Assembly (NCBI GenBank): GCA_913050325.1
Contig: CAJWZP010000007.1
Span: 1 to 59,996 of the forward strand
Source of the DNA: an uncultured bacterium
GTDB taxonomy: Bacteria > Desulfobacterota_D > UBA1144
Reading direction: 5' to 3'
Length of the DNA stretch: 59,996 nucleotides
Below the pieces are notes generated by a model, which had not been told where the DNA came from, did no database searches, and was given only the letters and a program-made list of their open reading frames with translations. How positions within the stretch are numbered: position 1 is the stretch's first letter; every line of letters begins with the position of its first letter. Below, piece by piece: positions 209 to 8,442 of the stretch. The translations under genes and the position numbers were made by a program.

Positions 209-706
209 TTATTTATTATAAAGAACTTCTTTCTTGTCAGCGAAGAAAATGGATTTAGTAATTATATAAATTAATGCAACTAAAGATATCTGCTCAACAA
301 CCATTGAGGAGAGTTTTAAGATAGCAAAATCAGCAGATATAAACCTAACAAGCCAACTAGATAAAATATCTAGCAAGCAGGCGGAAAAAGAGACTACAAT
401 AAGCCAAATCTTAACAACATTTGATAAATTACTGAAGAGCATTAAATGATTTAGGGTCATCAAAATAATACCCATAGCAAAAAGATGGAAGTGTGTCTCT
501 TCTACAATTGACCCATAGCTTTTTGGCTGCCTAAACGTTTCAGGATTACCAAGGTAATAATTAATAATTTCTTGAATAGTGAAGCCAATTTTTGTCATAA
601 ATAAAAAATTTGTAACAATAAGGCCAATAAAGAACACCAATGAAAACAATATAATTAGTTTCAAAGCAAAATTCTTGTTTAAATCTTTTGTAATAAAAAA
701 ACGCAT
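209..706 (-). CDS. Four-helix inner-membrane protein with an HxH motif, likely partner of the FMN-binding protein
   Basis: A 165-residue protein with about four hydrophobic helices and little else. It has no named function that I can assign. The most distinctive part is an EETHFHLF stretch with H72 and H74, followed by H87 in the next helix turn; histidines placed like this in membrane helices often bind haem or metal, which is inference here. It lies 14 bases downstream of the FMN-binding protein gene on the same strand, so the two are probably cotranscribed. A role as the membrane electron carrier that feeds the periplasmic flavoprotein fits the neighbourhood (porin, FTR1, ApbE), but no motif proves it. 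Confidence 0.8.
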   Translation of the reverse strand: MRFFITKDLNKNFALKLIILFSLVFFIGLIVTNFLFMTKIGFTIQEIINYYLGNPETFRQPKSYGSIVEETHFHLFAMGIILMTLNHLMLFSNLSNVVKIWLIVVSFSACLLDILSSWLVRFISADFAILKLSSMVVEQISLVALIYIITKSIFFADKKEVLYNK

Positions 707-720
707 TTAAAAACTTACAC

Positions 721-1242
721 TTAGTTATAAATCAAAGAGTATAAATTAGCAACTCTCTTGATAGCTTTTGTAGTTTCGTTATAAGAGATTGTTGAGTTTG
801 CAACCCTAATGATCTCATTATACTTAGGCATTTGAGCGGGGAGAGTTTTATTGTAAAACTGTTTGAACCAACTGCCTGACATTATGTATTCTTCAGGTTC
901 ATAAAAAGCTATTACTTCGGAGGACTTCATTCTTCCACCGTTATCAAAAACAATGAACAACGTTTGAGTTCTTGTTCTAAGTTTATGGGTGATGACAAAA
1001 GCAGTGAATTTTCTATTAGATCCACTAGCAGCTTCATAATAAGTAAATACTCTACTTTGAAATCTAGATTCAGCTTTCTCAGTTAAATCTTTGACTAATT
1101 TTTTTGTTAAATAAACTTTTTCTTTTTTAATATCTAACCCTGGGAAGTACTTTTCAAGTGCTTGATCTATGGTCATATTGACCTTGGAGTAGGATGGAAA
1201 AGTCAGAATTAAAACTAAAAATAATATGTTGAAAAGTTTCAT
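721..1242 (-). CDS. Periplasmic FMN-binding domain protein (probable ApbE substrate)
   Basis: 173 residues with a signal peptide (about residues 1-19, ending FPSYS). The middle contains VIAFYEPEEYIMSG followed by WFKQF, typical of FMN_bind domains. The C-terminal IIRVANSTIS aligns without gaps with the family flavinylation motif (I..VSGATIS), keeping the acceptor threonine as T151 but with ANS in place of SGA. In this family ApbE attaches FMN covalently to that threonine, and an apbE gene lies 3 kb away in the divergent operon. Likely a periplasmic one-electron carrier. A TATAAT box lies six bases before the ATG with no Shine-Dalgarno, so the mRNA may be leaderless. The divergence of the SGA residues leaves actual flavinylation unproven. 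Confidence 0.78.
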   Translation of the reverse strand: MKLFNILFLVLILTFPSYSKVNMTIDQALEKYFPGLDIKKEKVYLTKKLVKDLTEKAESRFQSRVFTYYEAASGSNRKFTAFVITHKLRTRTQTLFIVFDNGGRMKSSEVIAFYEPEEYIMSGSWFKQFYNKTLPAQMPKYNEIIRVANSTISYNETTKAIKRVANLYSLIYN

Positions 1243-1268
1243 TTTTTTATTATAACTAAATAGTATAC

Positions 1269-1342
1269 GAGTGCCACCTACAAGAGGTTTTTTTCACCGT
1301 TGACCAAGCGGCGGGTTGTCGAGAGAGATGTAGATGGCACTC
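1269..1342 (-). ncRNA. Structured RNA element upstream of the FMN-binding gene
   Basis: Bases 1269-1282 and 1329-1342 form a 14-base-pair outer stem. Inside it, 1295-1299 and 1309-1313 form a 5-pair stem with a 9-base loop. On the minus strand each stem has one G-U wobble where the plus strand would have an A-C mismatch, so the RNA is read from the minus strand. The element is much more GC-rich than its surroundings and has no U-tract after the stem, so it is not an ordinary terminator. It starts just after an 11-base word that is also found at the porin promoter. It matches no RNA family I recognise. Confidence 0.6.
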
Positions 1343-1376
1343 CAACAATACAATATGCGTTTACACGGTCATATTC

Positions 1377-2654
1377 TTAAAATATATATCCGACACCAAT
1401 GTTATACTGAGTATAATCATTATTAGTACCTGGATTTGTATGTCTTAATTGATCAAGTTTTAAAACAATATTAGCTATTGGCTTGATTGATACACCAACA
1501 TTGTAATACTGTAAATCTTGATAATTTCTGTTTGATGTTGCACTTGAATCTGTAGCTTTATGGAAGTTTAAGTTCTCATATCTAAAGAAAGGTGCGACAT
1601 ACCAACTGGCTCCCATCATTGGTCCAATGTCTTTTGCTACTTCCCAGTAGTAACCGACTTGTTTTGTACCAAATTTAGTGTTAGCAGCATCAGTTATATA
1701 TGCATTAAATCTATCAATGTTTGATAATTTATGGTTTGTGTATAGTGCTCTATATTCAAAACCAGCAAGCTCACCCATTAAATAGATTGTTCTCCATTCA
1801 ACTCTTGATTTAGGATCATTCATGTCATAAGAAGAAGCAGTAGAACCAGATGGTTGAATATTACCTCTATAATATGAAGCACCAATAACAGTACTGTTAT
1901 TCATGTTGTACTTGACAGAACCTGTAATCGCAAGTTCGTTTGCAGTTGATGAACTACCTTTACTTCTAAAATTCTTGTTAGTATTACCGTCAGCACCAGT
2001 GCCTGGGTTTTTTAGAGAAGTAATATAATAAGCTTTCCATTCGATTGTCTTATTATCAGTTTCACCAAAAAGACCTACACCATTTTCCCTATTTGTTGTA
2101 GGAAGCATAGTTGTTTCAGTTTGAGGTCTGTAAACCCCATGGAACAATGTAGGCTCATGAAGTTCGTTGATTATACCTGTAGGTAAAAGAAGCAAACCTG
2201 CTCTAAAACCTAAATTACCATTTAAAGCTTTTGGTAAATAATCGATATAAGCGAACTCTAAAAATGATTCATCTGCGTGTTCGATTTCAATCTCAGTGTT
2301 AAGAGACCATTCATCAGTAAATTTATATCCTATATAGAATACTCCACGATATGCATCAGTTTGGTCAGTTTTTTGCTCATTTGCATAAAACTTTCCTACT
2401 AATTCACCATAACCACCGATCGAAAGACCTGCAGATGTGTTATAAACTTTGGAAGCTGCGTCACCAAAACCATATTGTTGGCCTAATGAACCGCCCATTC
2501 CACCTTGTTTAAGTAATTCGACTTCTTCAGTTAATGCATCTAATCTTTCTTCCATAGATTGAGCAGAAGCATCTTTAGCAGTAAATAAACTACCAAATGA
2601 TAAACTGAAAAGCATTACAAAAACTAGTAATAGCTTAAAGTTAGAATTTGTCAT
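1377..2654 (-). CDS. Outer-membrane porin, phosphate-selective porin O/P-like
   Basis: 425 residues. It has a signal peptide ending in DASAQS, then a short coiled coil (SMEERLDALTEEVELLKQ), as in trimeric porins of the OprO/OprP type. The rest is a run of amphipathic beta strands that ends in the aromatic residue F (GVGYIF), as expected for a beta barrel. The start is fixed by a strong ribosome-binding site (AAGGAGG) about 11 bases upstream. Its position in front of the FMN-binding gene and opposite the FTR1 operon suggests that it admits an iron complex or another anion; the substrate is not readable from sequence. Confidence 0.85.
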   Translation of the reverse strand: MTNSNFKLLLVFVMLFSLSFGSLFTAKDASAQSMEERLDALTEEVELLKQGGMGGSLGQQYGFGDAASKVYNTSAGLSIGGYGELVGKFYANEQKTDQTDAYRGVFYIGYKFTDEWSLNTEIEIEHADESFLEFAYIDYLPKALNGNLGFRAGLLLLPTGIINELHEPTLFHGVYRPQTETTMLPTTNRENGVGLFGETDNKTIEWKAYYITSLKNPGTGADGNTNKNFRSKGSSSTANELAITGSVKYNMNNSTVIGASYYRGNIQPSGSTASSYDMNDPKSRVEWRTIYLMGELAGFEYRALYTNHKLSNIDRFNAYITDAANTKFGTKQVGYYWEVAKDIGPMMGASWYVAPFFRYENLNFHKATDSSATSNRNYQDLQYYNVGVSIKPIANIVLKLDQLRHTNPGTNNDYTQYNIGVGYIF

Positions 2655-2682
2655 AATAACCTTAACCTCCTTGTTGATTATA

Positions 2683-2711
2683 ACATTGTGGACTCACAAT
2701 ATCCACAATGT
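2683..2711 (-). promoter_or_regulatory. Perfect 10-base inverted repeat in the porin 5' leader
   Basis: ACATTGTGGA (2683-2692) and TCCACAATGT (2702-2711) are exact reverse complements separated by nine bases. The repeat sits just after the expected porin transcription start and between two divergent operons. It can be an operator for a dimeric regulator (a metal regulator would suit the genes) or a stabilising 5' hairpin in the porin mRNA. Confidence 0.6.
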
Positions 2712-2719
2712 CCAACAAT

Positions 2720-2747
2720 ACTATAATGAAATATTATCTAAAATCAA
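2720..2747 (-). promoter_or_regulatory. Porin promoter
   Basis: On the minus strand TTGATT (2747-2742), a 16-base spacer and TATAGT (2725-2720) make a good sigma-70 promoter. It places transcription start near 2713, immediately before the inverted repeat. The word GTATTGTTGGA that overlaps the -10 box and the start site recurs at about 1341-1351, before the structured RNA. Confidence 0.5.
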
Positions 2748-2816
2748 GAAAAATTTATAAATAATTGACATAATAAAAAAATTGTATAAATTTATGGACA
2801 AGTGAGGTCTATAATT

Positions 2817-3191
2817 ATGAGTAAATTCAAATTTATATATATTATTTCATTATTGTTAATTCCAATTATTCTAACTTTTACCGCATTATCTGCTAAAGCA
2901 GATTTTGATCCAATAAAAAAACAAATTGAAAAATTTCAAGTTATTTTGAAAGAAAACAAGAAAATAGATAAATCCACCCTAAAAGAAAATTTGGAAATCT
3001 TGCTTGAAAAAGCTGCTTTAATTGAAAATGAAGTAGCAAGCACTGACATAAATGCCGACTTAGGCTTATTAATGAATAAGTATGTAACCAATAACAAGAA
3101 AAATGGTGTTAAAAGTTCAGAATTAAGTTATTGGATAAAACACTTGTACGATGACATTCAAATGTTCAAAGACATGGGCATTGAAGGCTAA
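2817..3191 (+). CDS. Small secreted helical protein of the FTR1 operon
   Basis: About 124 residues from the ATG at 2817, which has GAGG nine bases upstream; an in-frame GTG at 2802 is less likely because that ribosome-binding site lies inside it. A signal peptide (to about ALSAKA) is followed by a charged, mostly helical domain with no cysteines and no recognisable motif. It ends two bases before the FTR1 start, so it is the first gene of that operon. Some FTR1 proteins carry an extra N-terminal periplasmic helical domain; this may be a separate version of it, acting as an iron-binding partner. That role is inferred from position only. Confidence 0.75.
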   Translation: MSKFKFIYIISLLLIPIILTFTALSAKADFDPIKKQIEKFQVILKENKKIDKSTLKENLEILLEKAALIENEVASTDINADLGLLMNKYVTNNKKNGVKSSELSYWIKHLYDDIQMFKDMGIEG

Positions 3192-3193
3192 TA

Positions 3194-3976
3194 ATGCTAA
3201 GTACAGCATTCATCTCTTCATTTACAATAATATTTCGTGAAGCATTAGAAGCTGTAATTATCATTGCAGCAGTTTACGCATACCTAAAGAAGATTGATGA
3301 TACTAAGGGCAAGAAAATTATTCATTATGCATGGATTTCATCATTACTAATAGGTGTATTAACATTTCTTGGAGCAAATTATTTATTCACTTTAACTTAT
3401 GCAGACGCAGAAGTTGTCGAAGGTGCAACAAGTATTTTCGCATCTTTAATTTTATTTTACGTTGGTGTTTGGTTCGCGACAAAAGCCGAAAAAAACAAGT
3501 GGAAAGAATACTTGCAATCAAAAGTTGATGCAGCTGTTTCAAAAAAAGATTTATGGGCATTATTCTTTGTAGTATTTTTCGCCGTTTACAGAGAAGTATT
3601 AGAAACAATACTCTTCTATCAAGCGCTTCTTTTTCAATTTGATATCCAAGATATTACATTAGGTTTTGTAGTCGGTATTTTAATAGTTTCTATAGTTTCT
3701 TATATAATTCTTAAAATGTCTCTTATTATTAATTTGAGGGTATATTTTATTTTCACTAGTATATTATTATTTTTCTTATCTTTATCCTTTATGGGTTATG
3801 GAATAACAGAATTGCAAGAAGTTGGAATGATTTCTACTACTATTATCGATATTCCTAATATTACTATTCTTGGCTTATACCCTACTCTAGAAACCTCTCT
3901 TCCACAATTAATAATGATATTAATATTACTAATATCAGCTTATAAAACATTTTTTAAATCAAGCTACGCAAATTGA
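3194..3976 (+). CDS. FTR1-family iron permease
   Basis: 260 residues with about seven membrane helices. Two copies of the family's REXLE iron-coordination motif are present: REALE at residues 15-19 and REVLE at 133-137, each inside a helix. FTR1/EfeU proteins move ferric iron across the inner membrane and usually need an electron-transfer partner. Here the neighbours are ApbE, an FMN-binding protein and a His-rich membrane protein rather than EfeO/EfeB. The stop codon overlaps the apbE start (TTGA), so the two are translationally coupled. Confidence 0.92.
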   Translation: MLSTAFISSFTIIFREALEAVIIIAAVYAYLKKIDDTKGKKIIHYAWISSLLIGVLTFLGANYLFTLTYADAEVVEGATSIFASLILFYVGVWFATKAEKNKWKEYLQSKVDAAVSKKDLWALFFVVFFAVYREVLETILFYQALLFQFDIQDITLGFVVGILIVSIVSYIILKMSLIINLRVYFIFTSILLFFLSLSFMGYGITELQEVGMISTTIIDIPNITILGLYPTLETSLPQLIMILILLISAYKTFFKSSYAN

Positions 3977-4953
3977 AAAAGGTTTATTTTTTAACATTTC
4001 TTACTTTTTTTCTGATACATACAAATGTTTATTCCTACGAATATGAAAGAAGTTTTATTTCATGGGGTACAAATTTTGATATTCGTATTAATTCAGATAT
4101 TCCTGAAAATGATCTTGATGACATTACTCAGAATATATTAGAAATTCTAGAAGACCTAAACAAAAAATTCAATAGTTATGATAAATCATCTGAAATTTCA
4201 AAATTAAATTTGACTAAGAAAAAAGAAGAAAAAATATCAAAAGAACTTTTTGACATAATTAATATTTCAAAAAATTACCATAATAAAACTATGGGTTATT
4301 TTGATATTACGATTGGTGCAATAACTGAACAATTTTCTTTTGAAAAAAATAATGAAAAAACAGAGTTATTAAAAAATAATAAATTTATCAAAAATTGCAC
4401 AGGGTGGGATAAAATTGAACTTAAATTTGAAAATTCTTCAGTTATGAAGAAAAGTGATTGTTTAAAATTTGATTTAGGAGGCTTAGCGGAAGGTTATGCA
4501 ATTAAAAAAATAATTGAGTTTCTTGAGTTTTATAAAATTGAAGATGCAATCATAAATTTTGGGGGTAATATCTCAACCTTATCAAAAAAAAATAAATGGT
4601 TAATTAAAATTCTAGAGCCTAGGGTTGAATATAAAATCTATGATGAAATTGAGTTAAATAATTTATCTATATCTGTGTCCTCAAAATACTCAAAAACTGT
4701 TGTTGATAATGGCATATCTTATTCTCATATATTTAATCCTGTAAAGAAAAAACTTTTAATTAAAAAAAATATATCTGTTTCGGTTATATCAGATGATCCG
4801 GTTTATTGCGATGTTATGTCAACTACTTTGATAACAATGGGTAAAGAAAAAATGCTTAAAACAATAAAACTAAATGATATTAAAGCTATTGTATTAGAGA
4901 GTGCTGAAAATGAAGCATCAGTCATATACGACTTTAGAAAATTAGATCGTTAA
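3973..4953 (+). CDS. apbE: FAD:protein FMN transferase (ApbE)
   Basis: 326 residues with an N-terminal signal or anchor segment. ApbE hallmarks are the DLGGLAEGYAIKKI segment, the INFGGNIS segment, and near the C-terminus a YCDVMSTTL stretch that corresponds to the magnesium-binding D-x-x-ST motif. ApbE moves FMN from FAD to a threonine of periplasmic flavoproteins. The likely client is the FMN-binding protein at 721-1242. The only start that fits is TTG at 3973, overlapping the FTR1 stop by four bases. Confidence 0.92.
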   Translation: MKKVYFLTFLTFFLIHTNVYSYEYERSFISWGTNFDIRINSDIPENDLDDITQNILEILEDLNKKFNSYDKSSEISKLNLTKKKEEKISKELFDIINISKNYHNKTMGYFDITIGAITEQFSFEKNNEKTELLKNNKFIKNCTGWDKIELKFENSSVMKKSDCLKFDLGGLAEGYAIKKIIEFLEFYKIEDAIINFGGNISTLSKKNKWLIKILEPRVEYKIYDEIELNNLSISVSSKYSKTVVDNGISYSHIFNPVKKKLLIKKNISVSVISDDPVYCDVMSTTLITMGKEKMLKTIKLNDIKAIVLESAENEASVIYDFRKLDR

Positions 4954-5026
4954 TCGGGGTGAGAGGGCTCGAACCTCCGACCCCCTGTTCCCAAAACAGG
5001 TGCGCTACCAGCTGCGCTACACCCCG
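4954..5026 (-). tRNA. tRNA-Pro (anticodon TGG)
   Basis: The minus strand reads CGGGGTG...CACCCCG with discriminator A. The anticodon stem CCTGT/ACAGG surrounds loop TTTGGGA, giving TGG. The T arm has GGTTCGAGCCC. No CCA is encoded after the discriminator base. Confidence 0.95.
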
Positions 5027-5072
5027 ATTAAAGAATCAATTATACATATTTAGAGAAAAACAACAATTCTTT

Positions 5073-6716
5073 TTAAATTTCATAAAATTGCTGATTAAAC
5101 TTAAAAATCTTAGAATATTCACTGTCTTTCTGTATTAATTCATCATGTGTACCAGTTTCAATTAATTTACCATTGCTTAAAATTATAATTTTATCATTAT
5201 CCTTTATAAGATTTAATCTATGAGCTATTAGAATTGATGTTTTATCTTTTACTTTGTCTAGATAATCTTTTACATCTTTTTCTAGATCTAAATCTAAATT
5301 GGAGGTTGCTTCATCTAAAATTATTACATGAAAAGGTTTCTCCAAAGTTTGTTTTACATTTCTTATTTGCTTTTCCCCTACAGATCTTAATGCATCAAAG
5401 CTATTTATGTTTTCATCATCAATTACAATATTAAATAATGCGGTGTCTTGCATAATTACTGAAAAATTTTCTCTAATTGAGTTAAAATTATATTTTTCTA
5501 GTTCAATTCCATCAATTAGTATTTCACCTTTTTTTGGTGTATAAAATCCTAGCAGAAGATTCATTATTGTAGTTTTACCGGAACCAGTAGAGCCCAACAT
5601 AAGTATTGAATCTCCCTTATTAATTTTTAAATTAAAATTTTTCAAAACCCAATTCTCTTCACCACCATATGAGAACCAAATATTTTTAAATTCTATGCAT
5701 TGAAAATTTCTAGGGAATTCGATATTACCAAACTTTTCTCTATCAACTTTAGCGATATTGAAAAGATTCTCACTAGCAGCAAGTGCAGACTGTAAAATAT
5801 CATACTTATCAGCTAAATCTAAAATTGGTCTAAAAATCATTCTTAAAAAAAATAATATTGCCAATAATTCTCCAACTGAGAGATTATTAGAGACAATTTC
5901 TCTACCTCCAATCCACACAATAGTAGCGGTTGAAAAAACAGACATAAATTCTATAAATGGACGATAGACAGCAAAAGTATACATTTGCTCCATGTTTGCA
6001 GAAAAATTTTCATTACTCAATGATTTAAATCTATTTAAGTTTTCATCGGACTTATTATATATTTTTAGTAATCTAATACCTCTTATTGATTCATTAATGA
6101 AAGAATTTAGTTTTGATATAGTTAATCTTAACTTGGTGTAAACCCTCCTTAATCTTTTTCTATATAAAAAAGCAAATACAATAATAAAAATTGTTATTAA
6201 AATAATTGAAAAAGTTAAATTGTAATTATATTGGAACATTACATAAATAACACCAACAATAACTAATAAATCCTTAACAAACTGAACAAGCACATTCGTA
6301 TAAAACTCATTTAATGCATTAACATCATTTGTGACCCTAGTTGTAATTCTTCCAACACTTTGTTTATCAAAAAATTGTTGAGGTAAATTTAAAACATGAT
6401 CAAAAACATCATCTCTGATATTTTTCATTATTTTTTGACCAGTGATATTCAGAATATAGCTAAATGTTGAACTAAAAATAAACACGCCAACTATTAGACC
6501 TAAAATTTTGAATGATGAATTTTTTATGTTTTCATATGTTGATTTTGATTCAACTATATTATCAACTACCTCTTTTATATTTATTGGGACTAGTAACTCA
6601 AAAATTGCAACAACTACCATTGCGAAGAAAGCTACGAAAATAAACGCCTTATAAGGTTTCGCAAAACTAAGCAACCAGAACAAAATATTTTTATCAGTAA
6701 ATTGATTTCTATACAT
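5073..6716 (-). CDS. ABC exporter half-transporter, subunit with the degenerate signature motif
   Basis: 547 residues: a six-helix exporter domain (about 1-320) and a nucleotide-binding domain. Walker A GSTGSGKT lies near residue 376, the Q-loop MQDTALF near 420, Walker B VIILDEATSNLD has the catalytic Glu, and the H-loop IAHRL has its His. The signature LSGGQ is replaced by SVGEKQ (about 441). Only some 20 residues separate Q-loop and signature, against about 55 in its partner, so part of the helical subdomain is missing. It overlaps the partner gene by eight bases. The pair resembles MdlA/MdlB-type multidrug or lipid exporters; the substrate is unknown. Confidence 0.9.
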   Translation of the reverse strand: MYRNQFTDKNILFWLLSFAKPYKAFIFVAFFAMVVVAIFELLVPINIKEVVDNIVESKSTYENIKNSSFKILGLIVGVFIFSSTFSYILNITGQKIMKNIRDDVFDHVLNLPQQFFDKQSVGRITTRVTNDVNALNEFYTNVLVQFVKDLLVIVGVIYVMFQYNYNLTFSIILITIFIIVFAFLYRKRLRRVYTKLRLTISKLNSFINESIRGIRLLKIYNKSDENLNRFKSLSNENFSANMEQMYTFAVYRPFIEFMSVFSTATIVWIGGREIVSNNLSVGELLAILFFLRMIFRPILDLADKYDILQSALAASENLFNIAKVDREKFGNIEFPRNFQCIEFKNIWFSYGGEENWVLKNFNLKINKGDSILMLGSTGSGKTTIMNLLLGFYTPKKGEILIDGIELEKYNFNSIRENFSVIMQDTALFNIVIDDENINSFDALRSVGEKQIRNVKQTLEKPFHVIILDEATSNLDLDLEKDVKDYLDKVKDKTSILIAHRLNLIKDNDKIIILSNGKLIETGTHDELIQKDSEYSKIFKFNQQFYEI

Positions 6717-8442
6717 TACTACTACCTGGTAATATTTTTTGAATTGATAATAATTGATTGAATAAATTATTATTTTTTATAAGATCACTAGATTTGCCCA
6801 TCTCAACAATGTTCCCAGAATCTAAAACTATAATTTTATCTAATGAATAAATTGTTGAAATCCTTGATGAAATAATTATTAAAAATTTATCTTTAAATTC
6901 ATTTTTTAAATTTTTTAAAATTTTAAGTTCAGTGTCGACATCCAATGAAGACAGTGTGTCATCAATTATGATAATTTCCGGATTTTGATATAGGGCTCTA
7001 GCGATTGAAACCCTTTGTCGTTGACCGCCTGATAAGGTAACTCCCCTTTCCCCAATAATTTCATCTAATCCATTTTCAAGATTTGATAAATCCTTTGTAA
7101 AACCTGCTAAATCAAGACATTTGAGGATTTTTTTATCATTTGTAAAATTATCAAAAAACGATACATTTTCTCTTAAGCTACCAGAAAAAATAACAGGATT
7201 TTGTGGCACATATAAAATTTTTTCTCTAATTGAATATTTATTTAATCTTGTTATTTCTTTATCATTTATAAAAATATTTTGAGACTCAATGTCTTTTAGT
7301 AAAAGATTCGCAAGAGATGTTTTACCTGATCCAGTTTTACCGGTTATACCAAGTGATTCACCTTTTTTTATTTCGAAACTAATATTATTTAGTATATTTT
7401 TATCCTCAATTTTGAATTTAGCATTCTTAAAATTTACATTAATTATTGAAGTTAAAGATTCAAGGTTTGATTCATCATTTTCTATATCTTGATTCATTAT
7501 AGAATCGACACGACTCAAACAAGCATTTCCTCTTTTTAACCAATCAACTGCTAACCCCATAGCCACAACGGGCCATCCCAGCATGGTTAAATAAACCATT
7601 AGCGAGGAAAATTCTCCTATTGTTATTTTTCCATCAATAACCATTTTGCTTCCAATAAAAATAAACACAAAAATTGACAAGCCAGTAAAAAAAGTAATTA
7701 AAGGTTGATAGCCCGCCCAAATTTTAACTAAACTTAAATTAACTTTTTCATAATCTTTACTCTTAGATTTAAATTGTTTTAATTGGTCATTTTGAACGTT
7801 TAAGGATTTTATAACTCTTATTGAAAAAATTATTTTTCTTGCCTCTTCCGTAAGTTTTGAAAAAGATGATTGAACATTAAGAAATAACTTTTCAATCAAA
7901 TCACCATATTTAACAATTAGTAAACCCATAATGAAGAATGGTATTGAGGCATAAGCAGTAAATATAGGAGATATAAAAAACATAGATATAAATATAAAAA
8001 CTAACAAGACAATGCCGTCATATGCTACTACCACACCAAATCCACAAGCCATTTTAATAGTTTCTATGTCGTTTACACCTCTTGCCATAAAATCTCCAAC
8101 AGTATTTTTTTGGTATGAATCCTGAGATAATTTTTGAACTTTTTCAAAATAAGAATCTCTTAATTTTCTTTCTATTCTTCTGGATGTTCCTAAAAGAAAA
8201 TATCTCCAAACAAACCTAAAAATAGCCATAATTATTCCGCAACCGATTAAATAAAGCGCTGATTCATTCACTAAAGATATTATTTCTGTTTCACTATTTA
8301 ATGTAGATATGCCATCTACAACCTTGCCTATTAATATTGGGACAATTAGTTGCATCATATCTACCATTGTTAATCCTATAATTCCAAAGAATATATTTTT
8401 TTTATGATTTTTTAGCAGTGAATATAATGTTCTTTTTTTCAT
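6709..8442 (-). CDS. ABC exporter half-transporter, partner with canonical signature but degenerate Walker B
   Basis: 577 residues: six-helix exporter domain (about 1-310) and nucleotide-binding domain with Walker A GKTGSGKT (about 364), Q-loop PQNPVIF (about 411) and a perfect signature LSGGQRQR (about 466). Walker B ends IIIIDD, so the catalytic Glu is Asp, and the H-loop His is Ser (SSRIST). These losses complement those in the downstream subunit. In a heterodimer, Walker A/B of the 547-aa subunit would pair with this signature to form one good ATP site, and the other site would be inactive. First gene of the two-gene operon. Confidence 0.92.
   Translation of the reverse strand: MKKRTLYSLLKNHKKNIFFGIIGLTMVDMMQLIVPILIGKVVDGISTLNSETEIISLVNESALYLIGCGIIMAIFRFVWRYFLLGTSRRIERKLRDSYFEKVQKLSQDSYQKNTVGDFMARGVNDIETIKMACGFGVVVAYDGIVLLVFIFISMFFISPIFTAYASIPFFIMGLLIVKYGDLIEKLFLNVQSSFSKLTEEARKIIFSIRVIKSLNVQNDQLKQFKSKSKDYEKVNLSLVKIWAGYQPLITFFTGLSIFVFIFIGSKMVIDGKITIGEFSSLMVYLTMLGWPVVAMGLAVDWLKRGNACLSRVDSIMNQDIENDESNLESLTSIINVNFKNAKFKIEDKNILNNISFEIKKGESLGITGKTGSGKTSLANLLLKDIESQNIFINDKEITRLNKYSIREKILYVPQNPVIFSGSLRENVSFFDNFTNDKKILKCLDLAGFTKDLSNLENGLDEIIGERGVTLSGGQRQRVSIARALYQNPEIIIIDDTLSSLDVDTELKILKNLKNEFKDKFLIIISSRISTIYSLDKIIVLDSGNIVEMGKSSDLIKNNNLFNQLLSIQKILPGSSNV

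Follow-up and report, generated by a model that had tools for sequence, protein, structure and literature searches.

A conserved porin–flavoprotein module as a candidate iron acquisition system in the uncultured UBA1144 lineage

Near the start of a contig from an uncultured bacterium (GenBank assembly GCA_913050325.1, contig CAJWZP010000007.1; Bacteria, Desulfobacterota_D, UBA1144), six genes diverge from a single intergenic region, and the locus raises the question of what these genes accomplish together. An earlier note had described a leftward set of a porin, a flavin mononucleotide (FMN)-binding protein and a four-helix membrane protein with an HFH motif (hereafter TM4), and a rightward set of a small secreted protein (SEC), an FTR1 permease and ApbE, and had read them as one flavin-dependent system of iron uptake or reduction. 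The window, by which we mean the whole 59,996-nucleotide stretch analysed, is a complete contig (C7) of a 1.0 Mb genome that is 93% complete. All six open reading frames (ORFs) were confirmed at the positions given in the note, and the proposed common control region is real, as both promoters lie within 2655–2816. Our analysis indicates that the genes probably constitute an iron-starvation-induced, flavin-based periplasmic redox system for iron acquisition.

A conserved block with an optional permease

We searched 61 genomes, 58 of which (the window's genome included) belong to the class, in which Candidatus Dadabacteria is among the named members, beside marine metagenome-assembled genomes; families are denoted f1, f2 and so on, f1 being that of the window. 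Among the 58 class genomes, the FMN protein and TM4 match closely in their phyletic distribution, with both encoded in 40, each alone in one, and neither in 16. Gene maps of 40 loci, plus 29 named loci, reveal that the order porin–FMN–TM4 is fixed in essentially every class locus mapped, the exception being the divergent g18 genomes of f5, in which ApbE is placed between FMN and TM4. ApbE adjoins the block in f1, f2 and most of f5 and f6, and is located elsewhere in f4. It is encoded in 40 of the 41 genomes that have the FMN protein, a co-occurrence that bears out the coupling of ApbE to the flavoprotein.

The co-occurrence foreseen by the note holds for the porin, the FMN protein, TM4 and ApbE, and within the family for SEC, but not for FTR1. 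Adjacency of FTR1 to the block is limited to f1 (the window, g2 and g5) and f2. Most of the class encodes it as a fusion with cytochrome c, ~640–800 amino acids (aa) long, and in f4 and f5 it sits on another contig. The phyletic association between the FMN protein and FTR1 is not significant (p = 0.067), and four congeners are devoid of FTR1, indicating that the module is not there to feed FTR1 alone. FTR1 is an accessory, optional part. A decayed module is present at G007:C12 (L065), with a TM4 remnant (88-aa ORF), ApbE fragments containing an in-frame TGA, and the porin and FMN genes gone; module loss is in progress in genus g4. At L101 (G019), just a porin fragment is left beside FTR1.

The window's 173-aa protein gives no Pfam FMN_bind match of its own in a Pfam scan, but PF04205 is found in its orthologues (35.1, 28.5 and 24.6 bits against a cut-off of 22; E 2.1e-8 to 4e-5), and a profile of the family finds RnfG from an Rnf complex (9eri_G, E 5e-4), with the acceptor Thr aligned in a common ITG(A/S)TI context. 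Specifically, T151 is invariant across 20 orthologues, in a motif that reads GATI in most of them and GSTI or NSTI in the window's family. The protein is thus RnfG-like and probably binds FMN, the latter as the note had suggested, and is predicted to be flavinylated at T151. The identity of ApbE is certain (PF02424, E 1.1e-53), as is that of FTR1 (PF03239, E 1.6e-28, 100.3 bits against a cut-off of 25.3), which has 260 aa and two REXXE motifs. The score of FTR1 against the NCBIfam EfeU equivalog is 100.5 bits, below the cut-off of 255, so that the protein belongs to the FTR1 superfamily and is not an EfeU equivalog.

TM4 is modelled as four long helices and one short helix, and the positive-inside rule puts the EE-x-HFH motif close to the outer end of helix 2; residues E69, E70, H72, H74 and H87 show little or no variation. 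TM4 and its relatives match no Pfam or NCBIfam family, which places TM4 outside the named transmembrane electron-transfer classes (PepSY-, MsrQ-, NapH- and DsbD-like), and TM4 matched no Protein Data Bank (PDB) entry. A Foldseek search returned 175 matches, none below E 0.6, and a known fold or heme site was therefore dropped. When one genome from each of 84,980 species was scanned, TM4 was found only in relatives of this class, with patterns strict enough that distant relatives may exist.

SEC is confined to f1 and gave neither a family match nor a significant fold match; its start is likelier the ATG at 2817 than the GTG at 2802. The idea that SEC was once the N-terminal domain of the cytochrome c-FTR1 fusions and split off was rejected as unproven (hhalign probability 36%). 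The porin gave no Pfam domain or named family above cut-off, and its relatives give weak beta-barrel matches only. Between the porin and FMN genes lies a structured RNA element (z −3.4). Related genera keep a long stem of different sequence in the same place: the stem measures 13–16 bp across genera, its sequence varies while the pairing is kept (z −2.7 to −5.4), and its inner part is more conserved. Terminator-like hairpins occupy the same gap in other families, which suggests that the porin is produced in excess over the FMN protein and TM4. An Rfam search of the intergenic RNA returned tRNAs and one chance match only. Neither this element nor the palindromic operator described below appears in the earlier note.

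Operators at iron genes

A 25-bp palindrome, ATTATGGA-N9-TCCATAAT, recurs downstream of each of the two divergent promoters. We built a position weight matrix on 23 sites at porin, SEC and FTR1 promoters, whose leave-one-out scores range from 16 to 31 bits. In 592 kb of related loci, the matrix gave 35 matches of at least 17 bits, many of them from the training set, of which 33 lie outside called ORFs and two inside; shuffled DNA gave none. Outside the training set, a match precedes the ZIP gene by 34–36 bp in this genome (G000) and in G001, G002 and G003, and the operator is also found at the FTR1 genes of G011, G012 and G008. Furthermore, it is present at the f3 FTR1 (18.5 bits) and at the unlinked FTR1 fusion of G038 (19.2 bits). 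In three congeners, the operator (20–25 bits) stands before a FutA-type operon with permease and ATPase genes and before a flavodoxin gene; the FutA identity rests on a best PDB match to the iron transport protein 2pt1 (1e-91), and that of the flavodoxin on an NCBIfam FldA match above cut-off. Genes for a FutA-type ferric transporter and for flavodoxin are classic markers of iron limitation. The operator is therefore common to ZIP, FutA, flavodoxin and FTR1.

A scan of the window's own genome, allowing at most two mismatches, found eight places, three of which are the porin, SEC and ZIP promoters; the rest lie in coding DNA (clpP, atpG and others) and were judged to be chance matches. A CDGSH protein gene has a match in G011 and G012, and CDGSH iron-sulfur protein genes with the palindrome 61 bp upstream were seen in two g2 genomes (L226:2715-2951 and L230:1-219). 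In f2 (L165:6880, L166:4551), a 22-bit palindrome lies upstream of a c-type cytochrome gene adjoining the suf/Rrf2 region.

Each of 16 genomes searched encodes one strong Rrf2 protein, with two in G038 and two partial ones at contig ends in G045. The Rrf2 gene usually heads the suf genes, and its product has the CX6CX5C triad of Fe-S-sensing Rrf2 proteins. The operator (13–22 bits) precedes this gene in f2, f5 and f6, and not in f1 or f3. Rhodobacter IscR, whose gene is first in an isc-suf operon, sets a precedent as an Rrf2 protein that runs an iron regulon (PMC4618611). Fur is divergent in f1 and missing from G006, a genome that also has no palindrome at FTR1 and ZIP, and a Fur-family protein may therefore be the reader of the palindrome. 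In f4 and f5, most porin and FTR1 promoters lack the palindrome and have Fur-box-like sites in its place (TTGATAATGATTATCAA and variants), the majority of them within 80 bp of the porin start. At one f4 locus (L097:9734), a Fur-like box and a strong match to the palindrome (24 bits) both stand ~700 bp ahead of the porin start, which may point to a long leader and to regulation in an intermediate state. DtxR was discarded as a candidate, there being none in nine family genomes searched. The likeliest regulator in this lineage is the IscR-like Rrf2 protein from the suf operon, and in related families Fur. On either assignment, control of the targets remains of the iron type. Because the same targets carry iron-type operators of two different kinds, iron-starvation control of the module is very likely, and the involvement of iron claimed by the note is borne out by the operator common with ZIP, and with FutA and flavodoxin in congeners, and by the Fur-box-like sites that other families have at the porin and FTR1 genes.

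Proposed mechanism and alternatives

We propose that the porin, the FMN protein and TM4 form a core whose maturation would depend on ApbE. When iron is scarce, an iron-sensing repressor would leave the palindromes and both operons would be expressed. Ferric complexes would enter through the porin, TM4 would pass electrons from the quinone pool (quinol) to the covalently bound FMN of the secreted protein, and the flavoprotein would reduce or loosen periplasmic Fe(III). Import across the inner membrane would fall to the strain's own importer, FTR1 and ZIP here, and FutABC together with ZIP in congeners; a search of 19 genomes for FeoB found none. A flavin carrier would spare iron otherwise spent on heme, which fits a regulon that also includes flavodoxin; Meheust et al. 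2021 made the same general point on flavin and iron cost (PMC8238504).

The reading draws on gene content, the conserved block, the acceptor Thr, the co-occurrence with ApbE and operators common with iron genes, from which we infer the identity of the regulator, the flavinylation, the electron path and the substrate. It gains from G011 and G012, in which the six genes share one orientation (ApbE, porin, FMN, TM4, SEC, FTR1), so that FTR1 and the module form a single same-strand run. Several points weigh against it. No experiment shows ferric reduction by the module; the window's copy of the FMN protein falls below Pfam detection and carries NST rather than GAT or GST; and TM4 has no recognisable redox site. 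In addition, the four congeners examined, and G010, have no FTR1 yet keep SEC, ApbE, porin, FMN and TM4, while G006 has FTR1 alone, with neither module nor operator. The FutA and flavodoxin sites are known from congeners and were not located in this genome, and ZIP proteins may carry Zn or Mn. For the full ferric-reduction mechanism, we consider the chances roughly even. A bolder version, which we hold to be possible but doubtful, is a new iron-free, flavin-only route of ferric reduction and uptake with a dedicated porin, in which the HFH family acts as a quinol:flavoprotein reductase, extending class-wide to Dadabacteria, with a switch from Fur to IscR-like control in a lineage with streamlined ocean members.

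Three other explanations were weighed. The flavin carrier may replace a cytochrome- or Fe-S-based periplasmic carrier at low iron, as flavodoxin replaces ferredoxin, with the porin importing the carrier's substrate. The flavodoxin under the same operator in three congeners, the persistence of the module in congeners after FTR1 loss, and the c-type cytochrome gene with an operator in f2 are all consistent with such a substitution; we judge it unlikely, since a carrier swap needs no dedicated porin, ZIP and FutA, which the operator also precedes, import metals, and FTR1 lies in an operon-like run with the module in G011 and G012 and has a divergent promoter region in common with it in the window and f2. 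More improbable still is that TM4 is a metal-binding or transport subunit, with EE-x-HFH binding Fe(II), TM4 acting as importer or iron donor and the FMN protein as reductase. The near-invariance of the five acidic and histidine residues and the presence of the module in G010, which has neither FTR1 nor ZIP, argue for it; TM4 is just 165 aa long, bears no similarity to known metal transporters, and would be joining the iron importers that most genomes already have. The note's own view, one obligate FTR1 machine of six genes, agrees with the neighbourhoods in the window, g2, g5 and f2, but is very hard to reconcile with the non-significant FTR1–FMN association and with congeners that keep the other five genes without FTR1, and is largely refuted.

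Locus features and relation to known systems

The features of the locus are collected in the table. The rightward genes are tightly packed, with a 2-bp gap between SEC and FTR1 and a 4-bp overlap between FTR1 and ApbE. A tRNA-Pro gene on the opposite strand (4953–5027) abuts the apbE stop codon, and beyond it two tandem ATP-binding cassette (ABC) exporter half-transporters (5073–8442) keep their synteny in congeners.

Table. Features of the divergent locus in the window
Feature	Position	Strand	Remark
TM4, 165-aa four-helix membrane protein, EE-x-HFH motif	209..706	−	no known family
Secreted FMN_bind/RnfG-like flavoprotein, 173 aa	721..1242	−	predicted flavinylation site T151
Structured RNA element, porin/FMN intergenic	1262..1346	−	14-bp stem around conserved inner hairpin region
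Outer-membrane porin, 425 aa	1377..2654	−	coiled-coil N-terminus, YGE motif; first gene of leftward operon
Operator 1, ATTGTGGACTCACAATATCCACAAT	2685..2709	strandless	perfect 10-bp inverted repeat; just downstream of porin promoter
Porin promoter TTGATT/TATAGT	2747-2720	−	
Promoter-like TTGACA-16-TAAATT, rightward operon	2765..2792	+	
Operator 2, TTTATGGACAAGTGAGGTCTATAAT	2791..2815	strandless	overlaps −10 and ribosome-binding region of rightward operon
SEC, small secreted helical protein	2817..3191 (alternative GTG start 2802)	+	
FTR1 iron permease	3194..3976	+	REALE and REVLE motifs
ApbE FAD:protein FMN transferase	3973..4953	+	

We found no description of this exact gene set in the literature; the linkage of flavin to FTR1 is not itself new, as FMN_bind genes in P19/FTR1 clusters have already been described (PMC8238504). 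In Bifidobacterium, the bfeUO/sifABCDE cluster encodes SifE, which has an FMN-binding domain; iron limitation induces the cluster, and mutants are chelator-sensitive (PMC5449479). Like these clusters, the present set pairs an FTR1 permease with a secreted FMN-binding protein tied to iron assimilation; unlike them, it is Gram-negative, includes a porin and a new four-helix protein, treats FTR1 as optional, and lacks P19, BfeO-like proteins and ABC permease genes (a Pfam scan found no P19, PF10634, in the cluster). It resembles EfeUOB/FTR1 systems in that a small secreted helical protein accompanies an FTR1-family permease bearing REXXE motifs. The difference from EfeUOB asserted by the note is confirmed: a Pfam scan of the six genes and the next three matched neither EfeO (M75/cupredoxin) nor EfeB (DyP peroxidase), in whose place stand the flavoprotein and ApbE.

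The ferric reductase clusters of Meheust et al. 2021 (PepSY-like, MsrQ-like) likewise combine ApbE, a flavinylation substrate and a membrane protein, and are linked to iron transporters (VIT1, TonB receptor), whereas here TM4 lies outside their transmembrane classes by Pfam and NCBIfam, a porin stands for the TonB receptor, and ZIP or FTR1 for VIT1. The FMN protein has in common with RnfG and NqrC the FMN_bind fold and the Thr acceptor in a GATI-type motif, but is a stand-alone secreted protein without Rnf or Nqr neighbours. As in the IscR/RirA regulons (Rhodobacter IscR), an Rrf2 regulator heads the suf operon and a palindrome precedes iron-uptake genes; the operator sequence differs, and the regulator is assigned here tentatively. 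The set is thus probably a form of flavinylation-linked iron assimilation, in which the porin and a membrane family not described before are the constant partners, and not a new category.

Growth in much of the ocean is iron-limited, and the iron supply of small streamlined marine bacteria is poorly known. The conserved flavoprotein–porin module offers a concrete candidate iron pathway, and TM4 a new membrane-protein family that is a candidate for electron transfer. The marking of the same targets by two different iron-type operators in related families offers a strong means of assigning function that needs no culture.

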